64,000 nt of DNA from Comamonadaceae bacterium (GTDB lineage: Bacteria > Pseudomonadota > Gammaproteobacteria > Burkholderiales > Burkholderiaceae_C), in the NCBI GenBank assembly GCA_947478725.1, contig CANJWZ010000009.1, forward strand, positions 1 through 64,000. The letters are read 5' to 3'. Each line of letters begins with the position of its first letter. Position 1 is the first letter of the stretch. Under the pieces are notes generated by a model. That model did not search any database and had not been told where the DNA came from. It worked only from the letters and a program-made list of their open reading frames with translations. This document shows, in pieces, positions 13,730 through 38,524 of the stretch. Both the position numbers and the translations under genes were made by a program.

Positions 13730-14320
13730 TTACTGGCGCTGAAACTTGAACACCGCCCGGCCGGCCAGCGCATTCGGCCAAAAACGAACCTCTTGGCCGT
13801 CTTGCAGGCCAAACTGGTCAATGATGTCAAGCTGGTTTTTGATGGCCAGCGCCTTAAAGTCCTGCAGTGTGCCGACCCGAATGTTGGGGGTGTCGTACCA
13901 CTGGTAAGGCAGCACTTTGGTCACCGGCATCCGGCCGCGCAGCACAGCCAGGCGGTTGGGCCAATGGCCGAAGTTCGGAAACACGACGATGCCGATTCGC
14001 CCGACGCGGGCGGTCTCGCGCAGCATGACTTCAGCATTTCTCAGGTGCTGTAGCGTGTCGATTTGCAGCACCACATCAAACGAGGCGTCGCCAAATACAG
14101 CCAGACCTTCGTCCAGGTTGAGCTGAATCACATTCACGCCGCGCGCCACGCAAGCCTGCACATTGGCGTCGTTGATTTCAACGCCGTAGCCCGAGCAGCC
14201 GCGTTCCTTCATCAAGTAGGCCAGCAACTCGCCGGTACCGCAGCCCAGGTCCAGCACGCGCGAGCCCTGCGGCACGAGGCGGGCGATCGACAGCAGGTCT
14301 TGTGTAGGTTCAGCTGTCAT
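13730..14320 (-). CDS. metW: Methionine biosynthesis protein MetW
   Basis: The 196-residue protein has a class I SAM-methyltransferase-like fold with the [15 protein letters not shown] motif near residue 20 and the MetW-specific [10 protein letters not shown] block. MetW is required with MetX for full homoserine O-acyltransferase activity in many proteobacteria that lack MetA. The start overlaps the metX stop by 4 bases (14317-14320), a coupling typical of metXW. It may have no methyltransferase activity of its own. Confidence 0.95.
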
Positions 14321-15546
14321 AAGGTCACTCTGCTCTTAAAATAAGAGCGCACAACACCCAAATAACGGGCATCTTCAAGCAAAAAGGCATCGTGCCCGTG
14401 GGGTGCATCGATCTCGGCGTAGCTCACGTCGATCTGGTTGTCCAGCAGCGCCTTGACGATTTCGCGGCTTCGGGCAGGGGCAAAGCGCCAGTCGGTGGTG
14501 AAGCTGACCAGCAAAAATTGGGCTGTGGCGTGTTTCAAAGCGGCGCTTAAATCGCCGCCAAACGCAGCAGCAGGGTCAAAGTAATCGAGCGCACGAGTGA
14601 TCAGTAAATACGTGTTCGCATCAAAGTATTCGCTGAACTTGTCGCCCTGGTAACGCAAATAGCTTTCGATTTGAAACTCAATCTCTTGAGTCGAGTATTT
14701 GAATGGCGTGGCTTCAATCGCATTGGCATTTCCTCGTCCAGCCGGGGCCGCAGAACCGGCTTTGCCGGGCTGCAGGCGCAGCGCCCCCTCGGGGGGCAGC
14801 GTCGTACGCGAAGCGACAAGCGTGGGGGCTTGTTTCCGGCCGAATTTCTCATTCATCACGTCATCACTTAAATAAGTGATATGACCAATCATTCGAGCAA
14901 TGCGCAGGCCGCGTTTGGGCAACACACCTTGCTCAGCATAGTGGCCTTCGCAAAAGTCGGGGTCGGTCACGATGGCGCGGCGGGCGACTTCGTTAAAGGC
15001 AATGTTCTCAGCGGTGAGATTAGGCGCGCTGGCCACCACCACCGCGTGGCGCACGCGGTCGGGGTATTGCAGCGTCCAGCTCAGGGCCTGCATGCCGCCC
15101 AGGCTGCCGCCCATCACAGCGGCCAGGGTTTGAATGCCCAGCGCATCCATCAGGCGAGCCTGTGCATCTACCCAGTCTTGCACGGTGACCACTGGAAAGT
15201 CGGCACCGTAAATTTTGCCGGTGTCAGGGTTGGTCTGCATCGGCCCGGTCGAGCCGAAGCAAGAGCCGAGATTGTTCACCCCGATGACAAAAAAATGGTC
15301 GGTATCGACCGGCTTGCCGGGGCCAATCATGGTGTCCCACCAACCTTCGGATTTTGGCTGGCCCTCATACACGCCGGCCACATGATGCGATGCATTCAGG
15401 GCGTGGCAAATCAGCACCGCGTTGGACCGGTCCGCATTCAAGCTGCCATAAGTCTCGTAGCTCAGGTCGTAGGCGCGAAGCGTTGCGCCGCTTTGCAGCG
15501 GCAAGGCTTCTTCAAAATGCATGGACTGCGGTGTGGCGATCAACAT
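14317..15546 (-). CDS. metX: Homoserine O-acyltransferase MetX with internal repeat-derived insertion
   Basis: This 409-residue alpha/beta-hydrolase acylates homoserine, the first committed step of methionine synthesis. Visible features are the [11 protein letters not shown] oxyanion block, the nucleophile elbow [10 protein letters not shown] (Ser) and the C-terminal Asp/His elements ([20 protein letters not shown]). Family members are usually about 370-380 residues. The excess comes from an insertion between NEKFGRK and the YSTQEIEF...YLRYQGDKF block. About 16 codons of it are a GC-palindrome repeat (14781-14829), and the flanking GC-rich sequence extends it to 35-40 residues. The insertion lies before the lid-side helices, not in the catalytic triad, so activity may survive. 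ATG 15546 gives the standard N-terminus. Confidence 0.93.
14781..14829. repeat. GC-palindrome dispersed element, copy A (inside metX)
   Basis: A 49-bp unit begins with a C-run/G-run hairpin (GCGCCCCCTCGGGGGGC) and ends AAGCGTGGGGGC. It matches the copy at 37104-37152 at 46 of 49 positions by hand alignment. In metX it is translated on the minus strand as [17 protein letters not shown] further small palindrome (CCGGCTTTGCCGG) sits next to it, within 14753-14770. Confidence 0.9.
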
Positions 15547-15564
15547 GGCGTGTGCATTGAAAAT

Positions 15565-15615
15565 AAAAAAACCCAGCGTCGCTAAAGGCGAGGCCGGGCG
15601 GGCTGGCGTCTTTAG
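15565..15615 (-). promoter_or_regulatory. Possible attenuator leader of metX
   Basis: Read on the minus strand, a GC-rich hairpin (CCAGC...GCTGG, with inner TCGC/GCGA) is followed by seven U residues and then metX 19 bases later. An alternative pairing between CTAAAGACG (15615-15607) and CGCCTTTAG (15590-15582), 8 of 9 complementary, would break the terminator stem. Mutually exclusive hairpins in front of a methionine gene suggest transcription attenuation or a riboswitch. I could not match it to a known SAM or SAH riboswitch. Confidence 0.4.
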
Positions 15616-15714
15616 CTGTACTTGTAAAGCGCCCGCAAGCTGTGGCAAATCGGCGCTGAATCAGTATATCAACTCTGGCGAGCGGGTGAAACTGCCGCGG
15701 GCGGCCGTTTTCGC

Positions 15715-19722: not shown

Positions 19723-20391
19723 TTACCAGACCGCAGCAAAGGTTTGCCGCAGTTCTTCAATTTGTGAATCTGTCAAAGGCACGGTGCCGGGCTGCAGACA
19801 CGCCAGCTTGGCGGTTTCTTCGAGTTCATCGAGCACCGCCATCGCTTCAAAGGGCGTACTTGCCCACACATTGGGCCCGAGGCGCGGCAGCATGACTGCC
19901 CGAACCGGCGTGCCGCGCGCACCGTAGTCGGTGATGGTGTTGGCCACTTCCACCGCGAGGGCTGGGCTGCCGGGGCGGTGGTATTGCATGACCGGCACGC
20001 GGCCGACTTTCATGACGAAGTAGGGGGTCAGCGCGCCCAGCAATTCAGCGCCGGGCGACTGCAAAGTCAAAGCCACACAATGCGTGCTGTGGGTATGAAT
20101 AATACAGCCCGCCTGAGGATCAAACGGCGCTGTAGCCGAATAAATTCGTGCATGTAGCGCTATGGTTTTGCTAGCTTTTTCACCGCTGGTTTGCTGTGCG
20201 TTGTGGTCCAGTTTGGCCAGCTTGGCGGGGTCTAAAAACCCCATGCAGGCATCGGTTGGTGTGATGAGAAAACCATCATCGAGACGAACACTGATGTTGC
20301 CCGCCGTCGCATGCACATAGCCCCGGTCAAACAGGCTTTTGCCGACGCGGCAGATGTCTTCACGGGCCCGGGATTCTTTTGAAAGCGTCAT
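19723..20391 (-). CDS. otnC: 3-oxo-tetronate 4-phosphate decarboxylase, class II aldolase/adducin family
   Basis: The 222-residue protein has the class II aldolase fold. The substrate loop is HATAGNISVR, the Zn ligands are in IIHTHSTHCV (HxH), and a third His-type region lies near residue 150. OtnC decarboxylates 3-oxo-tetronate 4-phosphate to dihydroxyacetone phosphate and CO2. It overlaps otnK by 4 bases (ATGA at 20388-20391), so the two are coupled. Without the neighbours it could be mistaken for an L-fuculose-phosphate or ribulose-phosphate aldolase; the cluster makes OtnC the better call. Confidence 0.9.
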   Translation of the reverse strand: MTLSKESRAREDICRVGKSLFDRGYVHATAGNISVRLDDGFLITPTDACMGFLDPAKLAKLDHNAQQTSGEKASKTIALHARIYSATAPFDPQAGCIIHTHSTHCVALTLQSPGAELLGALTPYFVMKVGRVPVMQYHRPGSPALAVEVANTITDYGARGTPVRAVMLPRLGPNVWASTPFEAMAVLDELEETAKLACLQPGTVPLTDSQIEELRQTFAAVW

Positions 20392-21722
20392 GCCAGCATC
20401 TTAAAAGCATCGGTGAAGAAGTCATTGCCGCCGAAGTTGCCGGATTTAAGCGTGATGTGCATACCTGATGCGGCCAGGCGCCGGGCCGCCCCAAGGCTGG
20501 CACGGCCCCCTTGGGGGGCAGGAAGGACACGCAGTGCCGACCGTGGGGGCACACAGTAACACCACGGTACGCCGGGGGCAATCTGTGGGCCAATTTGCAT
20601 CTGGGCGATGCCCAGCGCCTGCACACAGGCACCCGATGTCTCACCGCCCGCCACGATCAACTGGCGCACGCCCAGCGCCACCAAGCCGGTGGCGATAGCC
20701 GCCAGCGTGCGTTCTACCAAGTCACCCGCTTCTTGAACACCCAATTGTTCTTGCACGGCTTTGATGGCGGCGCTTGCTGCCGTGGAGTACACCAACACCG
20801 GCCCACTTTGCAGCAGCGGCGCGGCCCACGCCAGTGCTTCTGCCGCCACGTCAATGCCACTGGCCATGCGCAGCGGGTCAACCGCCAGGGCAGGCCGGCC
20901 GGCAGTGATGAACGCTTGCACTTGTGCGTTGGTGGCCAGCGAGCAACTGCCCGACACCACGGCTTGCCAGCCATCGGCTTCGGGCAGGGCACTGGCTTGC
21001 GCTGACGGCGCGATGCCAAAGTTTTGCGGCAAGCCAATCGCCACGCCAGAACCAGCTGTGACCAGCGGCATGCCTTTGAGGGCGGGCCCCAGGCGCATCA
21101 AGTCTTCATTGCTGATCGCATCCACAATGGCCACCCCGACACCAGCGGCTTTGAGCTCCTGGATACGCTCTGCAATGGCCGCTGTACTGCGCCCCACCGC
21201 GGTGTAGTCCACCAGGCCGACCGCGCGCCGGGTTTGCGCTTGCAGCACGCGCACCAGGTTGGCGTCCAGCATGGGCGTGAGCGGGTGGTTTTGCATGCCG
21301 CTTTCATTGAGCAGCATGTCACCAGCAAACAAATAGCCTTTAAAAACCGTTCGGTTGTTGTCAGGAAAAGCGGGCGTGGCAATGGTGAAGTCGGTGCCGA
21401 GTGCATCCATCAAGGCCTCTGTGACCGGGCCAATATTGCCTTGGGCGGTGCTGTCAAAGGTGGAGCAGTATTTGAAGTAAATCTGCTGGGCGCCCTGCGC
21501 CTCTAGCCAGCTGAGCGCGGCCAGTGATTGTGCAATCGCGTCTTGCGGGGCAATGGTGCGGGACTTCAGCGCCACCACCACCGCATCCACGTCTGCACTT
21601 AATGGCGACGTCGGCACGCCAATGGTTTGCACCACACGCATGCCTGCACGCACCAGGTTGTTGGCCAGGTCGCTGGCACCTGTGAAGTCATCGGCAATAC
21701 AACCCAGAAAAATTTTATGCAT
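20388..21722 (-). CDS. otnK: 3-oxo-tetronate kinase (DUF1537 family) with repeat-derived C-terminal insertion
   Basis: The 444-residue ATP-dependent kinase has the DUF1537 N-terminal substrate domain (GCIADDFTGASDLANNLV at the start, FKYCSTFDSTAQGNIGP about residue 83). Its C-terminal nucleotide domain carries LIVAGGETSGA and the terminal LKSGNFGGNDFF block. OtnK phosphorylates 3-oxo-tetronate at O4. Between GVPWCY and MHITLKSGNFGG lies an atypical stretch of about 32 residues encoded by a GC-palindrome repeat (20501-20551 and flank) read in frame. It sits next to the ATP-site glycine block, so it might affect activity. The gene overlaps ltnD by 8 bases and otnC by 4. Confidence 0.9.
   Translation of the reverse strand: MHKIFLGCIADDFTGASDLANNLVRAGMRVVQTIGVPTSPLSADVDAVVVALKSRTIAPQDAIAQSLAALSWLEAQGAQQIYFKYCSTFDSTAQGNIGPVTEALMDALGTDFTIATPAFPDNNRTVFKGYLFAGDMLLNESGMQNHPLTPMLDANLVRVLQAQTRRAVGLVDYTAVGRSTAAIAERIQELKAAGVGVAIVDAISNEDLMRLGPALKGMPLVTAGSGVAIGLPQNFGIAPSAQASALPEADGWQAVVSGSCSLATNAQVQAFITAGRPALAVDPLRMASGIDVAAEALAWAAPLLQSGPVLVYSTAASAAIKAVQEQLGVQEAGDLVERTLAAIATGLVALGVRQLIVAGGETSGACVQALGIAQMQIGPQIAPGVPWCYCVPPRSALRVLPAPQGGRASLGAARRLAASGMHITLKSGNFGGNDFFTDAFKMLA
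20501..20551. repeat. GC-palindrome dispersed element, diverged copy C (inside otnK)
   Basis: The unit has the same layout as copies A and B: a CCCCCTTGGGGGGCAG hairpin, a GC-rich middle and the GACCGTGGGGGC end. By eye it is more diverged in the middle. It is translated on the minus strand as part of LPAPQGGRASLGAARRLA. Confidence 0.6.
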
Positions 21723-29120: not shown

Positions 29121-29216
29121 GAAACACCCCCTCCGGGTGCTCACTGCGTGGAGCACCAACCCCCCTTGCGGGGGGCGACGCATTCGGCATGGCAAAGCCA
29201 GTGCCATGGCGTCTGC
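29121..29216. repeat. GC-rich palindromic repeat between thiS and thiG
   Basis: The 131-base gap in an otherwise tightly packed operon contains CACCCCCTCCGGGTG, then CCCCCCTTGCGGGGGG followed by GACGCATTCGGCATGGC. It is related in style to the elements at 14781 and 37104, but belongs to a different subtype. As transcribed it would form strong hairpins inside the thi mRNA and could affect thiG expression or mRNA stability. Confidence 0.6.
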
Positions 29217-36374: not shown

Positions 36375-37064
36375 ATGAAAATCCTGCTGGTTGAAGACGA
36401 TGCCGTTTTGCGTGAGGTGATGCTGCGCAGCCTGAGCGATGCGGGGCACCGCGTCGACATTGCCGCCAGCATCGACGACGCCCGCCACTGGTGGCGCGTG
36501 CAGACCTACGACTCGGTACTGCTGGACCTGAATTTGCCTGTGACCACTGCTGCGCCAAAACAGGGCAGCGGCCTGAGCCTGCTGCGCGAGGCCAGAAGCA
36601 GAGGTGACCGCACCCCCGTGCTGGTGCTCACGGCACGCGGCCGACTTGAGGAACGCATTGCCGGGCTGGATGCGGGTGCCGACGACTACATGGGCAAGCC
36701 GTTTGACCTGGCCGAGGTCGAGGCGCGTTTGCGCGCACTGGTGCGCCGCGCCCAGGGCACCGACGACCAAGTGACGCTGGGGCTGCTGCTACTGGACAGA
36801 AAAGCCCGGCGCTTTTACCTGGACAAGCAGCCTTGGGATTTGCCCGCGCGTGAATTTGAAGTGCTCTGGGAGCTGATGACACCCCCTGGCCGGGTCGTCA
36901 GCAAACGCGTTTTGTCTGACAAGCTCAGCGAAACCGACGAGGCGCTGGGCGACAACGCGCTGGAGGCTTTTATCTCCAGGCTGCGCAAAAAACTGCTGGG
37001 CAGTGGTGCAAGCATTCGCACCCTGCGCGGCATTGGTTATGTGCTGGAGGAAAGCGCCGCATGA
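36375..37064 (+). CDS. OmpR/PhoB-family response regulator
   Basis: The 229-residue protein has a receiver domain (residues 1-120) with acidic pocket VEDD, the phosphoacceptor Asp in SVLLDLNLP, LTARG and the Lys in MGKPF. A winged-helix DNA-binding domain follows (residues about 135-225, LPAREFEVLWELMTPPGRVVSK; IRTLRGIGYVLE). After the phosphorylation site there is an unusual short insertion (VTTAAPKQGSG) relative to typical members. It is divergent from czcCBA and overlaps the kinase gene by ATGA, so it likely controls the efflux operon (CzcR-like). Confidence 0.93.
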   Translation: MKILLVEDDAVLREVMLRSLSDAGHRVDIAASIDDARHWWRVQTYDSVLLDLNLPVTTAAPKQGSGLSLLREARSRGDRTPVLVLTARGRLEERIAGLDAGADDYMGKPFDLAEVEARLRALVRRAQGTDDQVTLGLLLLDRKARRFYLDKQPWDLPAREFEVLWELMTPPGRVVSKRVLSDKLSETDEALGDNALEAFISRLRKKLLGSGASIRTLRGIGYVLEESAA

Positions 37065-38524
37065 CCAAGCGACATTTTTCTGACGGGCCGCCCCTAGGAA
37101 AAAGCGCCCCCTCGGGGGGCAGCTTGCTACGCGAAGCGACAAGCGTGGGGGCAACAAAACCCTCCCTTCGCAGCCGCGTCATCAGGCACGTCGTCCTGCC
37201 GCTCGTTGTGCTCTGGGCGCTGGGCACGGCGGTGGCATTGGGCGTGGCCAACTACTTTGCAGGCCAGGCTTTTGACAGATCGCTACTCGACGATGCCTAT
37301 GCAGTAGCGGCTAATGTCCGAATGCACAGCACGGGCCCGGTGCTCAATTTGTCACCGTCAGAGATGAGCGCTCTGCTGTTTGACCAAAGTGAGTCGATGT
37401 ACTTTGCCGTTCTGCTGCCCAATGGCGCACTGTTGGCAGGCCACGCCGGGCTGAAGCCGCCGCCGCTGCCCAAAGAAACGGCTTTTGGCTTTGCCGACAT
37501 CACCTTTCAAAACCGGGCGCTGCGCAGCGTCAGCTTGCACCGCTATGAGCCGACCGAGTTCACCATGGTCGTGGCGCAAACCACGACCGCCAGAAACGGC
37601 TTGTTGCAACGCATGCTGACCTATGCGGTCGTACCGCAGGTGCTGCTGCTGCTGTTTTTGGTGTGGTGGCTGCGCAGGGTGATTCAGCGTGACCTGCTGC
37701 CGCTGGCAGAGCTGCAACAGGCGGTTGACCAGCGCGGTGTGCGCGACCTGAGCCCCATGCCGCTGAGCGTGACCACGAACGCCAACAACCGCGATGTGCA
37801 GCGTCTGGGGACATCCGTCGATGCGCTGATGACGCGGCTGGAAGACAGCATCACGGCCCAGCGGGAGTTTGCCGGCAATGTGGCGCACGAGCTGCGCACA
37901 CCGCTGGCGGGCATACGCGCGCAAGCCGACTACGCCCTGGCGAACGCTGATCCTGCGGTGTGGCGCGAGCAACTGCAAGGCATCGCACGCGGCCAGGAAA
38001 GGGCCAGTCACCTGGTCGAACAGCTTTTAGGCCTGGCCCTGGCCGATGAGGCACGCGCCAGCTTGCAGCTCATCCCTATTGCTATCAATGAAGTAGCGCG
38101 TGACGTTTTGCTGCGCTACCTGCCCAAGGCTGATGCAGCTGGCGTGGACTTGGGCGGCGACGGGCTGGACGAGCGTGTGATGGTTGAGGCTGATGCGGCC
38201 TTGCTCGAAGGCATTTTGGGCAACCTGCTGGACAACGCGCTGCGTTATGGTGTGGCTGCGCAACCCCAAGTCACGGTTGCCGTGGTGGCGGGAGATGGTG
38301 TCGTGACGTTGTCAGTCACAGACAACGGCCCCGGCTTGACCTCCCAAGAGGCCGAACAGCTGCGCCAGCGCTGGTCATTGGGCCCGGCAGGCCAGCAGTT
38401 GGGGGAGGGCGCAGGGCTGGGGCTGGCGATCGTCAGCCGCTATGCGGACCTGATGAGCGCGCGGTTCAGACTACAGGCTGTGCCAGGCGAATCCGGTTTG
38501 CGCGCCAGTGTGACATTCGGATGA
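37061..38524 (+). CDS. Sensor histidine kinase with repeat-encoded N-terminal tail
   Basis: The 487-residue inner-membrane kinase has TM1 at about residues 45-65, a periplasmic sensor of about 110 residues, TM2 near 190-210, a HAMP-like linker, the H-box FAGNVAHELRTPLAGIR, N-box NLLDNALRYG, G1 DNGPGLT and G2 GAGLGLAI. The architecture fits QseC/TctE-type kinases with a 2CSK_N sensor region. Residues 15-32 of the cytosolic tail are encoded by the 49-bp GC-palindrome repeat, lengthening the N-terminus before TM1. The ATGA overlap with the response regulator makes the upstream start likely. Confidence 0.92.
   Translation: MTKRHFSDGPPLGKSAPSGGSLLREATSVGATKPSLRSRVIRHVVLPLVVLWALGTAVALGVANYFAGQAFDRSLLDDAYAVAANVRMHSTGPVLNLSPSEMSALLFDQSESMYFAVLLPNGALLAGHAGLKPPPLPKETAFGFADITFQNRALRSVSLHRYEPTEFTMVVAQTTTARNGLLQRMLTYAVVPQVLLLLFLVWWLRRVIQRDLLPLAELQQAVDQRGVRDLSPMPLSVTTNANNRDVQRLGTSVDALMTRLEDSITAQREFAGNVAHELRTPLAGIRAQADYALANADPAVWREQLQGIARGQERASHLVEQLLGLALADEARASLQLIPIAINEVARDVLLRYLPKADAAGVDLGGDGLDERVMVEADAALLEGILGNLLDNALRYGVAAQPQVTVAVVAGDGVVTLSVTDNGPGLTSQEAEQLRQRWSLGPAGQQLGEGAGLGLAIVSRYADLMSARFRLQAVPGESGLRASVTFG
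37104..37152. repeat. GC-palindrome dispersed element, copy B (inside kinase gene)
   Basis: This copy is 46/49 identical to copy A at 14781-14829, with both ends identical; the three differences are at unit positions 21, 23 and 24. Here it is on the coding strand and is translated as [17 protein letters not shown], so relative to gene direction it is inverted compared with metX. Confidence 0.92.

Follow-up and report, generated by a model that had tools for sequence, protein, structure and literature searches.

A repeat built of hairpins is dispersed through the genome of a Comamonadaceae bacterium, where its copies lie in frame inside conserved proteins and are present at some sites and absent from the same sites in relatives. 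The hairpins covary between copies, and at one loop of MetX the presence of inserts changes recurrently among relatives. The explanation that we consider likely is a dispersed Burkholderiales repeat that spreads by means of a mobiliser, with copies that are in frame in protein loops surviving and with the MetX loop a hot spot at which inserts have been repeatedly gained and lost. The route of spread would be transposition. The original prediction, that a REP-like sequence can enter coding regions and lengthen the encoded proteins, is supported in its interpretation and right in kind, although by eye no GTAG or CGTC tag is seen in the consensus and the repeat is for that reason not filed here as REP.

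Anatomy of the Repeat Unit

The analysis started from the window, a stretch of 64,000 nucleotides. When up to two mismatches were allowed, the core GCCCCCTYGGGGGGCAG was matched in the window at 14783, 20505 and 37106, compared with 0.10 matches expected from shuffles. Copy A (14781-14829) and copy B (37104-37152) were recounted as identical at 46/49 bases, in agreement with the value first given, and the match at 20505 confirms the diverged copy C that had been placed in otnK. A search of the bacterium's own genome (G000) located the exact core at 48 places (backwards control, 0), and hence the repeat is found well beyond the window. Reading of all 48 copies with their flanks revealed that the 49-bp element first described is a real repeat but constitutes only the right half of a full unit of ∼80 or ∼95 bp.

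Two classes of unit, with this right half in common, were distinguished in G000. Class 1 comprises 34 of the 48 copies by an assignment rule under which a few fit neither class well (e.g. L009, L026 on the minus strand, and one of the two in L035), and class 2 comprises 14. The 5′ hairpin of class 1 has a stem that differs from copy to copy (TTTTCC/GGAAAA, CCGCCG/CGGCGG and TCGA/TCGA are examples) around the fixed loop CGNCGGGCCGCCCCAAG; in class 2 its place is taken by a longer module, GGGGCCGCGGRACTGGCTTTGCCAG...GCGCAGCG. The core hairpin GCCCCCTYGGGGGGC is followed by AG, a second variable hairpin and the fixed end CGTGGGGGY. The unit therefore has three hairpins, of which the outer two vary between copies yet stay complementary; the invariance of the core is partly by choice, since the G000 copies were gathered by its exact sequence. 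Class 1 units are mostly 77-82 bp in length, with outliers of 61 and 98 bp, class 2 units are ∼89-98 bp, and tandem spacings between units are 81-94 bp.

The units and host genes of the window are listed in Table 1. A match to the covariance model suggests a fourth, degenerate copy between two genes. In 16 of the 48 G000 copies, a CAT triplet, in some cases that of a start codon, lies within 6 bases of the Y that closes the element, and a preference for insertion near CAT is possible.

Table 1. Host genes and repeat units in the window
Feature	Position	Strand	Evidence and remarks
metX ORF (homoserine O-succinyl/acetyltransferase)	14317..15648	-	NCBIfam NF047916, 636.5 bits, two stretches; NF001209, residues 34-439
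Copy A, class 2 element, ∼90 bp	14740..14829	+	Read in reverse inside metX; left end approximate
otnK ORF (3-oxo-tetronate kinase), copy C near C-terminus	20388..21722	-	NCBIfam NF043035, 597 bits, two stretches; Pfam NBD_C, residues 254-436
Copy C, class 1 element	20472..20550	+	Read in reverse inside otnK, peptide ...VPPRSALRVLPAPQGGRASLGAARR...; covariance model 59.8 bits; left end approximate
Possible degenerate fourth copy, class 2-like	29126..29175	-	Intergenic; CTGGCTTTGCCA ... GCCCCCCGCAAGGGGGG ... GTGCTCCACGCAGTGAGCAC; covariance model 15.6 bits, E 0.015
Sensor histidine kinase ORF with copy B	37061..38524	+	Pfam 2CSK_N (48-184), HisKA, HATPase_c
Copy B, class 1 element	37074..37152	+	Read forward at kinase N-terminus; covariance model 68.2 bits; left end approximate

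As predicted, the three window copies lie in open frames in both orientations (minus for metX and otnK, plus for the sensor kinase). Their placement inside three genes holds for metX, where copy A sits between KFGR and YSTQEIEFQ, and for otnK; the copy in the kinase, for which the best family was QseC with a score below that family's cut-off, occupies residues ∼5-31 and so lies at the N-terminus rather than internally. At 15591-15666 (-), a match resembling the SAM_alpha riboswitch (RF00521) was observed, with 31.3 bits against a gathering score of 36. It lies upstream of the likely true metX start (Met at ORF residue 35, ∼15546), which suggests that the 443-residue frame starts too early.

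Distribution among Genomes

The exact core was present in 34 of 36 other genomes of the same genus, at up to 116 copies, and in 0 of 24 genomes sampled elsewhere in the order. The two genomes of the genus with zero exact cores are G003 and G022. When a covariance model was applied under strict filtering, to 24 candidates from each genome, matches were obtained in 26 of 250 Burkholderiales genomes (own genome included) and 17 of 121 genera, several of them with tandem arrays. Twelve loci were fetched from these matches: in 10, the core and the end were accompanied by the class 1 loop or, as with AGCCGCCTC in three loci, by a close variant of it, and the stem was a different one in each; L251 yielded no unit by text pattern, and L247 is a class 2 copy of the own genome. 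An array of 84-bp units was seen in L249. With one class 1 query (L248), no match was found among 50,697 phage records, and 2 of 72,556 plasmid records matched, each over about half of the 101-bp query.

Judged from sequence, the own genome appears to belong to a Polaromonas-type member of the Comamonadaceae, the nearest named metX loci being those of Polaromonas, Rhodoferax or Comamonadaceae. The genome of a sister species (G015), ∼92-97% identical to G000 in most shared loci, has 37 cores. Thirty of them were fetched. When these were compared with the G000 element loci, 12 either lacked a partner or matched oddly, and 10 of the 12 were searched for in G000: two were clearly absent (L195 and L203), two were present with a mutated core (L194 and L208), one was unclear (L204) and five were left without a resolved state. 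At the two sites clearly confined to G015 the flank was replaced too, and neither a clean empty site nor a target duplication was seen. A difference of ∼100 bp between L038 and L211 was rejected as a candidate, the sequence concerned not being an element.

Empty Sites and Recurrent Change in the MetX Loop

In the orthologues compared, the insert is absent at all three window sites, contrary to what would be expected if distant taxa carried the same residues there. For metX, inserts were absent from 12 of 12 loci of other families (L067-L078), which have short loops, and the stretch that is 49 residues long in the MetX of the window is one of 7 residues in the solved structure 2pl5. About half of the named Comamonadaceae metX loci also have no insert. 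For otnK, the junction could be read in four distinct orthologues (L096, L137, L145 and L172), all of them lacking the insert, and the distance from VPWC(H/Y) to the conserved end is shorter in these by roughly 70-80 bases; in this count, L184 has the same sequence as L096 (100% over 4168 bases), L167 is the same place as L172, and L163 ends before the junction. For the kinase, one relative (G012) was aligned, in which the equivalent of window positions 37065-37156 is missing and ATGA is followed directly by the kinase body.

Within the Comamonadaceae, reverse inserts in the MetX loop occur in loci titled Polaromonas, Acidovorax and Rhodoferax, and forward inserts in loci titled Rhodoferax, Pseudorhodoferax and Polaromonas. 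Tandem or double inserts are found in L088, L094, L102 and L106, and apparent remnants in L059, L097 and L100. Peptide motifs were used to label 79 of 80 named loci, and the labels of six rows were then corrected manually (L125 to none, L101 to R, and four from RF to R), giving 30 R, 10 F and 39 none; the share of 40/79 with inserts is biased upward because the loci were chosen by similarity to an insert-bearing query. The tree of metX was built without the loop by a quick method that leaves 31 of 76 inner branches open, and L092, which has no insert, was dropped from it because a single open frame of 300 residues was not found. On this tree the three states need 22 changes, gains and losses not being separable; starred branches alone force 7 (none), 6 (R) and 4 (F). 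The number of changes is 18 with seven doubtful or remnant rows left out, and 21 if L103 (a doubtful R) is scored as none.

In two sister pairs, L081/L124 (88.9% nucleotide identity across the aligned loci) and L098/L108 (91.2%), one member has the insert and the other lacks it. Copy number changes too: the metX of L102 contains two 81-bp units, compared with a single one in L116 and L119. L099 has four 84-bp units compared with one in L089 at the aligned place. The loop that surrounds the insert differs too between filled and empty alleles. An AlphaFold model of MetX was poor (mean pLDDT 57, pTM 0.65, 25 sequences); residues 246-314, which hold the insert, scored <50, as did other parts, and were modelled as coil after residue 269. 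The prediction is consistent with the insert forming a loop.

The recurrence in metX could also arise if inserts moved between species by homologous recombination of host genes, so that shared metX alleles, and not transposition, account for the pattern. The tree was derived from metX itself, and short exchanged segments would mimic gains and losses; the R and F labels moreover fall in clusters on it, with none of 500 shuffles giving so low a value, and few site differences between G000 and G015 were resolved. Against this, the MetX loop inserts differ in orientation, class, stem and copy number, which argues for several separate insertions, and some step of dispersal is needed to account for copies in 20 genes that are unrelated and belong to one genome. 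As a replacement for transposition, exchange of alleles is therefore unlikely; as a contribution to the metX pattern, it may add to what dispersal of the repeat has produced.

Covariation in the Hairpins

For the analysis of structure, 118 distinct units were gathered from all loci, orthologous copies of sister genomes included. The third hairpin was extracted from 92 of these, and its freely varying inner pair was A-T or G-C in 92/92, the two C-G pairs beside it being required by the search pattern. Its outer two pairs scored 1.90 of 2 with native arms versus 1.11 with swapped arms, and were mainly of five combinations. The class 1 loop was present in 58 of the 118 units, with 27 distinct first-hairpin arms; none of 2000 permutations paired as well, while a strict ungapped stem of at least 5 was formed by only 10 of the 27 (8% among swapped pairs).

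Alignment A4 (31 units) contained 23 doubly changed cells compared with 8.6 in shuffles (0 of 500), and 93.8% of its cells were paired versus 88.9% in shuffles; the number of pair types was not in excess (6 versus 7.1), and the outermost pair of the third hairpin was not formed in that register by 14 of the 31 rows. The core helix never varies in A4, partly because copies were found by the exact core. With RNAalifold, 1 of 13 pairs was doubly changed on A3, and 3 of 25 on A2; on A3 the program missed the variable left stem and placed an outer helix that showed almost no covariation and is not claimed. The RNA folding energies of the 49-bp pieces were no better than those of shuffles for copies A and B (z −0.9) and modest for copy C (z −2.4). 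The case for structure accordingly rests on covariation, not on energy. Rfam matches to SAM_alpha, mir-33 and Atu_C9 fell off the elements and below gathering scores, and were set aside.

Covarying hairpins, and a loop, core and end common to units from other genera of the order, are also what would be observed if the element were a functional structured site, a DNA-binding site or RNA element kept by selection, with coding copies retained for that function rather than tolerated. This reading is quite unlikely. Genomes of one genus hold anywhere from 0 to 116 exact cores and sites differ between sisters, a scan of 8 of the 47 loci holding a G000 copy placed no Rfam family on their elements, and covariation is also expected if a mobiliser needs the fold.

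Host Genes and Reading Frames

The longest open frame through each of the 48 copies was taken, so that openness is by choice, and 34 copies (33 frames) had at least 10 residues before and at least 3 after the insert. The three window genes were scanned as called ORFs, 27 frames were compared with NCBIfam and nine with Pfam (two new, five without and two with an NCBIfam match); L042 was left out of the family scans, and L002 and L007 were scanned against Pfam only. In total, 21 of the 48 copies lie inside parts of proteins for which NCBIfam or Pfam models match both before and after the insert. The 20 genes concerned are aceE, mpl, edd, gcvP, a ligase-associated exonuclease, metX, otnK, fmt, purL, a uvrA-type gene, a MadB-type ATPase, cysN, radA, recQ, icmF, an MdtB-type RND gene, amgK, an alpha/beta hydrolase, a DUF2126 protein and a glutathione transferase. 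In the last of these the insert falls between the two domains of the protein, and cysN (L035:3094-4539, +) carries two separate inserts, at residues 252-278 and 356-382. Four of the 20 host genes belong to DNA repair or recombination (uvrA-type, L028; radA, L037; recQ, L038; ligase-associated exonuclease, L013).

For six genes the missing side of the insert was scanned apart, and the profile positions before and after it were 95/97 (aceE), 238/238 (exonuclease), 99/99 (fmt), 141/150 (uvrA), 117/120 (radA) and 275/284 (RND_permease_1). The 0 to 9 profile positions that separate the two sides fit insertion rather than replacement. Other copies form N- or C-terminal extensions, in the kinase, ttcA, an indolepyruvate oxidoreductase subunit, cobC and an ABC ATPase; the remainder are intergenic, lie in frames without a family or are unclear.

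The internal copies are read in a restricted set of frames: F0 for 11, R0 for 8, F1 for 1 and R1 for 1, so that 19 of 21 use two frames (P = 5.9e-6, assuming that open frames are equally likely and copies independent). Over the 48 copies, the number of stop-free units was 45 for F0, 40 for F1, 21 for F2, 48 for R0, 20 for R1 and 46 for R2. As F1 and R2 are about as often free of stops as F0 and R0, stops alone cannot explain the choice of frame. Selection on the peptide would be the simplest cause; F1 reads as arginine-rich. Removal of the inserts from the finished protein, or their skipping by the ribosome, in the manner of inteins or translational-bypass hairpins, is very improbable despite their position in conserved enzymes and their capacity to form hairpins, since the 21 internal copies lie in open frames (by the way these were chosen) and skipping does not require a strong frame bias.

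Candidate Mobiliser

A Y1 transposase gene is present in 36 of 37 genomes of the genus, including G003 and G022, in which no exact core was found; G011 (79% complete) has 13 cores and no Y1 transposase match. In nine Y1 loci inspected, no full element lay within 3.5 kb, one of them having a lone GGCTTTGCC motif. A RAYT as linked mobiliser was rejected because the Y1 gene is nearly universal in the genus, is not beside elements and is present in zero-copy genomes. A Y1 transposase could act in trans.

Discussion

In the proposed mechanism, a putative mobiliser that probably recognises a folded single strand would carry units, either one at a time or in tandem arrays, to new sites; it is from dispersal together with covariation that we infer such non-autonomous spread with recognition of the fold. 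The unit is GC-rich and free of stops in several frames, and a copy that enters a surface loop in frame would be translated into ∼21-34 extra residues and survive, the insert being nearly neutral for the host protein, with other insertions presumably purged by selection. The outcome would be a set of core enzymes with element-coded loops and a MetX loop that has gained and lost inserts repeatedly.

A stronger version can be framed, in which the repeat is an active protein-building mobile system of free-living bacteria: the fold-recognising mobiliser would prefer certain coding contexts or phases, the MetX loop and the loops of ∼20 core enzymes per genome would be rebuilt repeatedly from element-coded peptides, and some of the peptides would now serve the host protein. 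On this view the 19/21 frame bias would stem from insertion itself as well as from selection. We regard this version as improbable, and the tolerated repeat as the better description.

In the accounts drawn on here, Rickettsia and Wolbachia are the best-known examples of bacteria whose proteins have been invaded in frame by palindromic repeats. These are reduced intracellular bacteria, in which weak selection readily explains such inserts. In the present case the bacteria are environmental and have genomes of ∼4 Mb; the inserts are numerous and lie in core enzymes, and close relatives carry either a filled or an empty allele at one loop. The repeat thus looks like a natural source of new protein segments. 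It may also explain Pro/Gly/Ala-rich insertions in Comamonadaceae proteins, which bear on annotation, gene trees and structure models.

Rickettsia palindromic elements (RPE) were reportedly the subject of a study by Ogata in 2000. Passages in PMC3767692, PMC10969869 and PMC3733652 describe them as palindromic repeats in frame in many unrelated proteins, solvent-exposed and with a conserved peptide. The present repeat is similarly in frame in unrelated proteins (20 genes by profiles) and absent from orthologues (three window genes aligned), and by analogy may work as RPE do, coding for protein in exposed regions. The comparison is by description, not by letters, and there are differences: the repeat belongs to Burkholderiales, its units are GC-rich with multiple hairpins, both orientations are used, and change has recurred at one loop. 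In the part of PMC3767692 that deals with this point, each rickettsial orthologue had the insert at the same locus, and insertion hotspots were left open.

REP/BIME sequences, in the relevant passages of PMC3733652, are short dispersed hairpins with subfamilies that have alternative complementary stem residues, dimers, clusters and intragenic copies, and REP-decorated genes are often repair genes. Short dispersed hairpins, alternative complementary stems, dimers, clusters, intragenic copies and repair genes among the hosts are seen here as well. Unlike REP/RAYT systems, the A1-A4 consensus contains no GTAG or CGTC tag (by eye), the units are of 80-95 bp with three hairpins, and no full element stood beside a Y1 gene in nine loci. 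Of the features of a MITE, a terminal inverted repeat was not apparent by eye, and no clean empty site with a target duplication was obtained.

Word searches of open-licence papers found none on in-frame insertions of the element in Comamonadaceae core proteins. As a repeat, the family has probably been described before. In 2011, PMC3110155 gave the name Betaproteobacterial repeat element (BRE) to an element that agrees with it in size, taxa and habits; the section on BRE describes a length of 75-91 bp, a tandem habit and some copies inside genes, and gives no hairpin anatomy, frames, host genes of coding copies or function. The present family is very probably BRE, as matched by size, taxa and habits as described, the letters of BRE not entering that comparison. 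The BRE unit is GC-rich and of ∼75-91 bp, which class 1 fits and class 2 (∼89-98 bp) slightly exceeds; BRE forms tandem arrays of variable copy number at one locus, as does the present repeat (L099 versus L089, and L249); and, like the units described here, BRE is chromosomal, found across Betaproteobacteria and in some cases intragenic.
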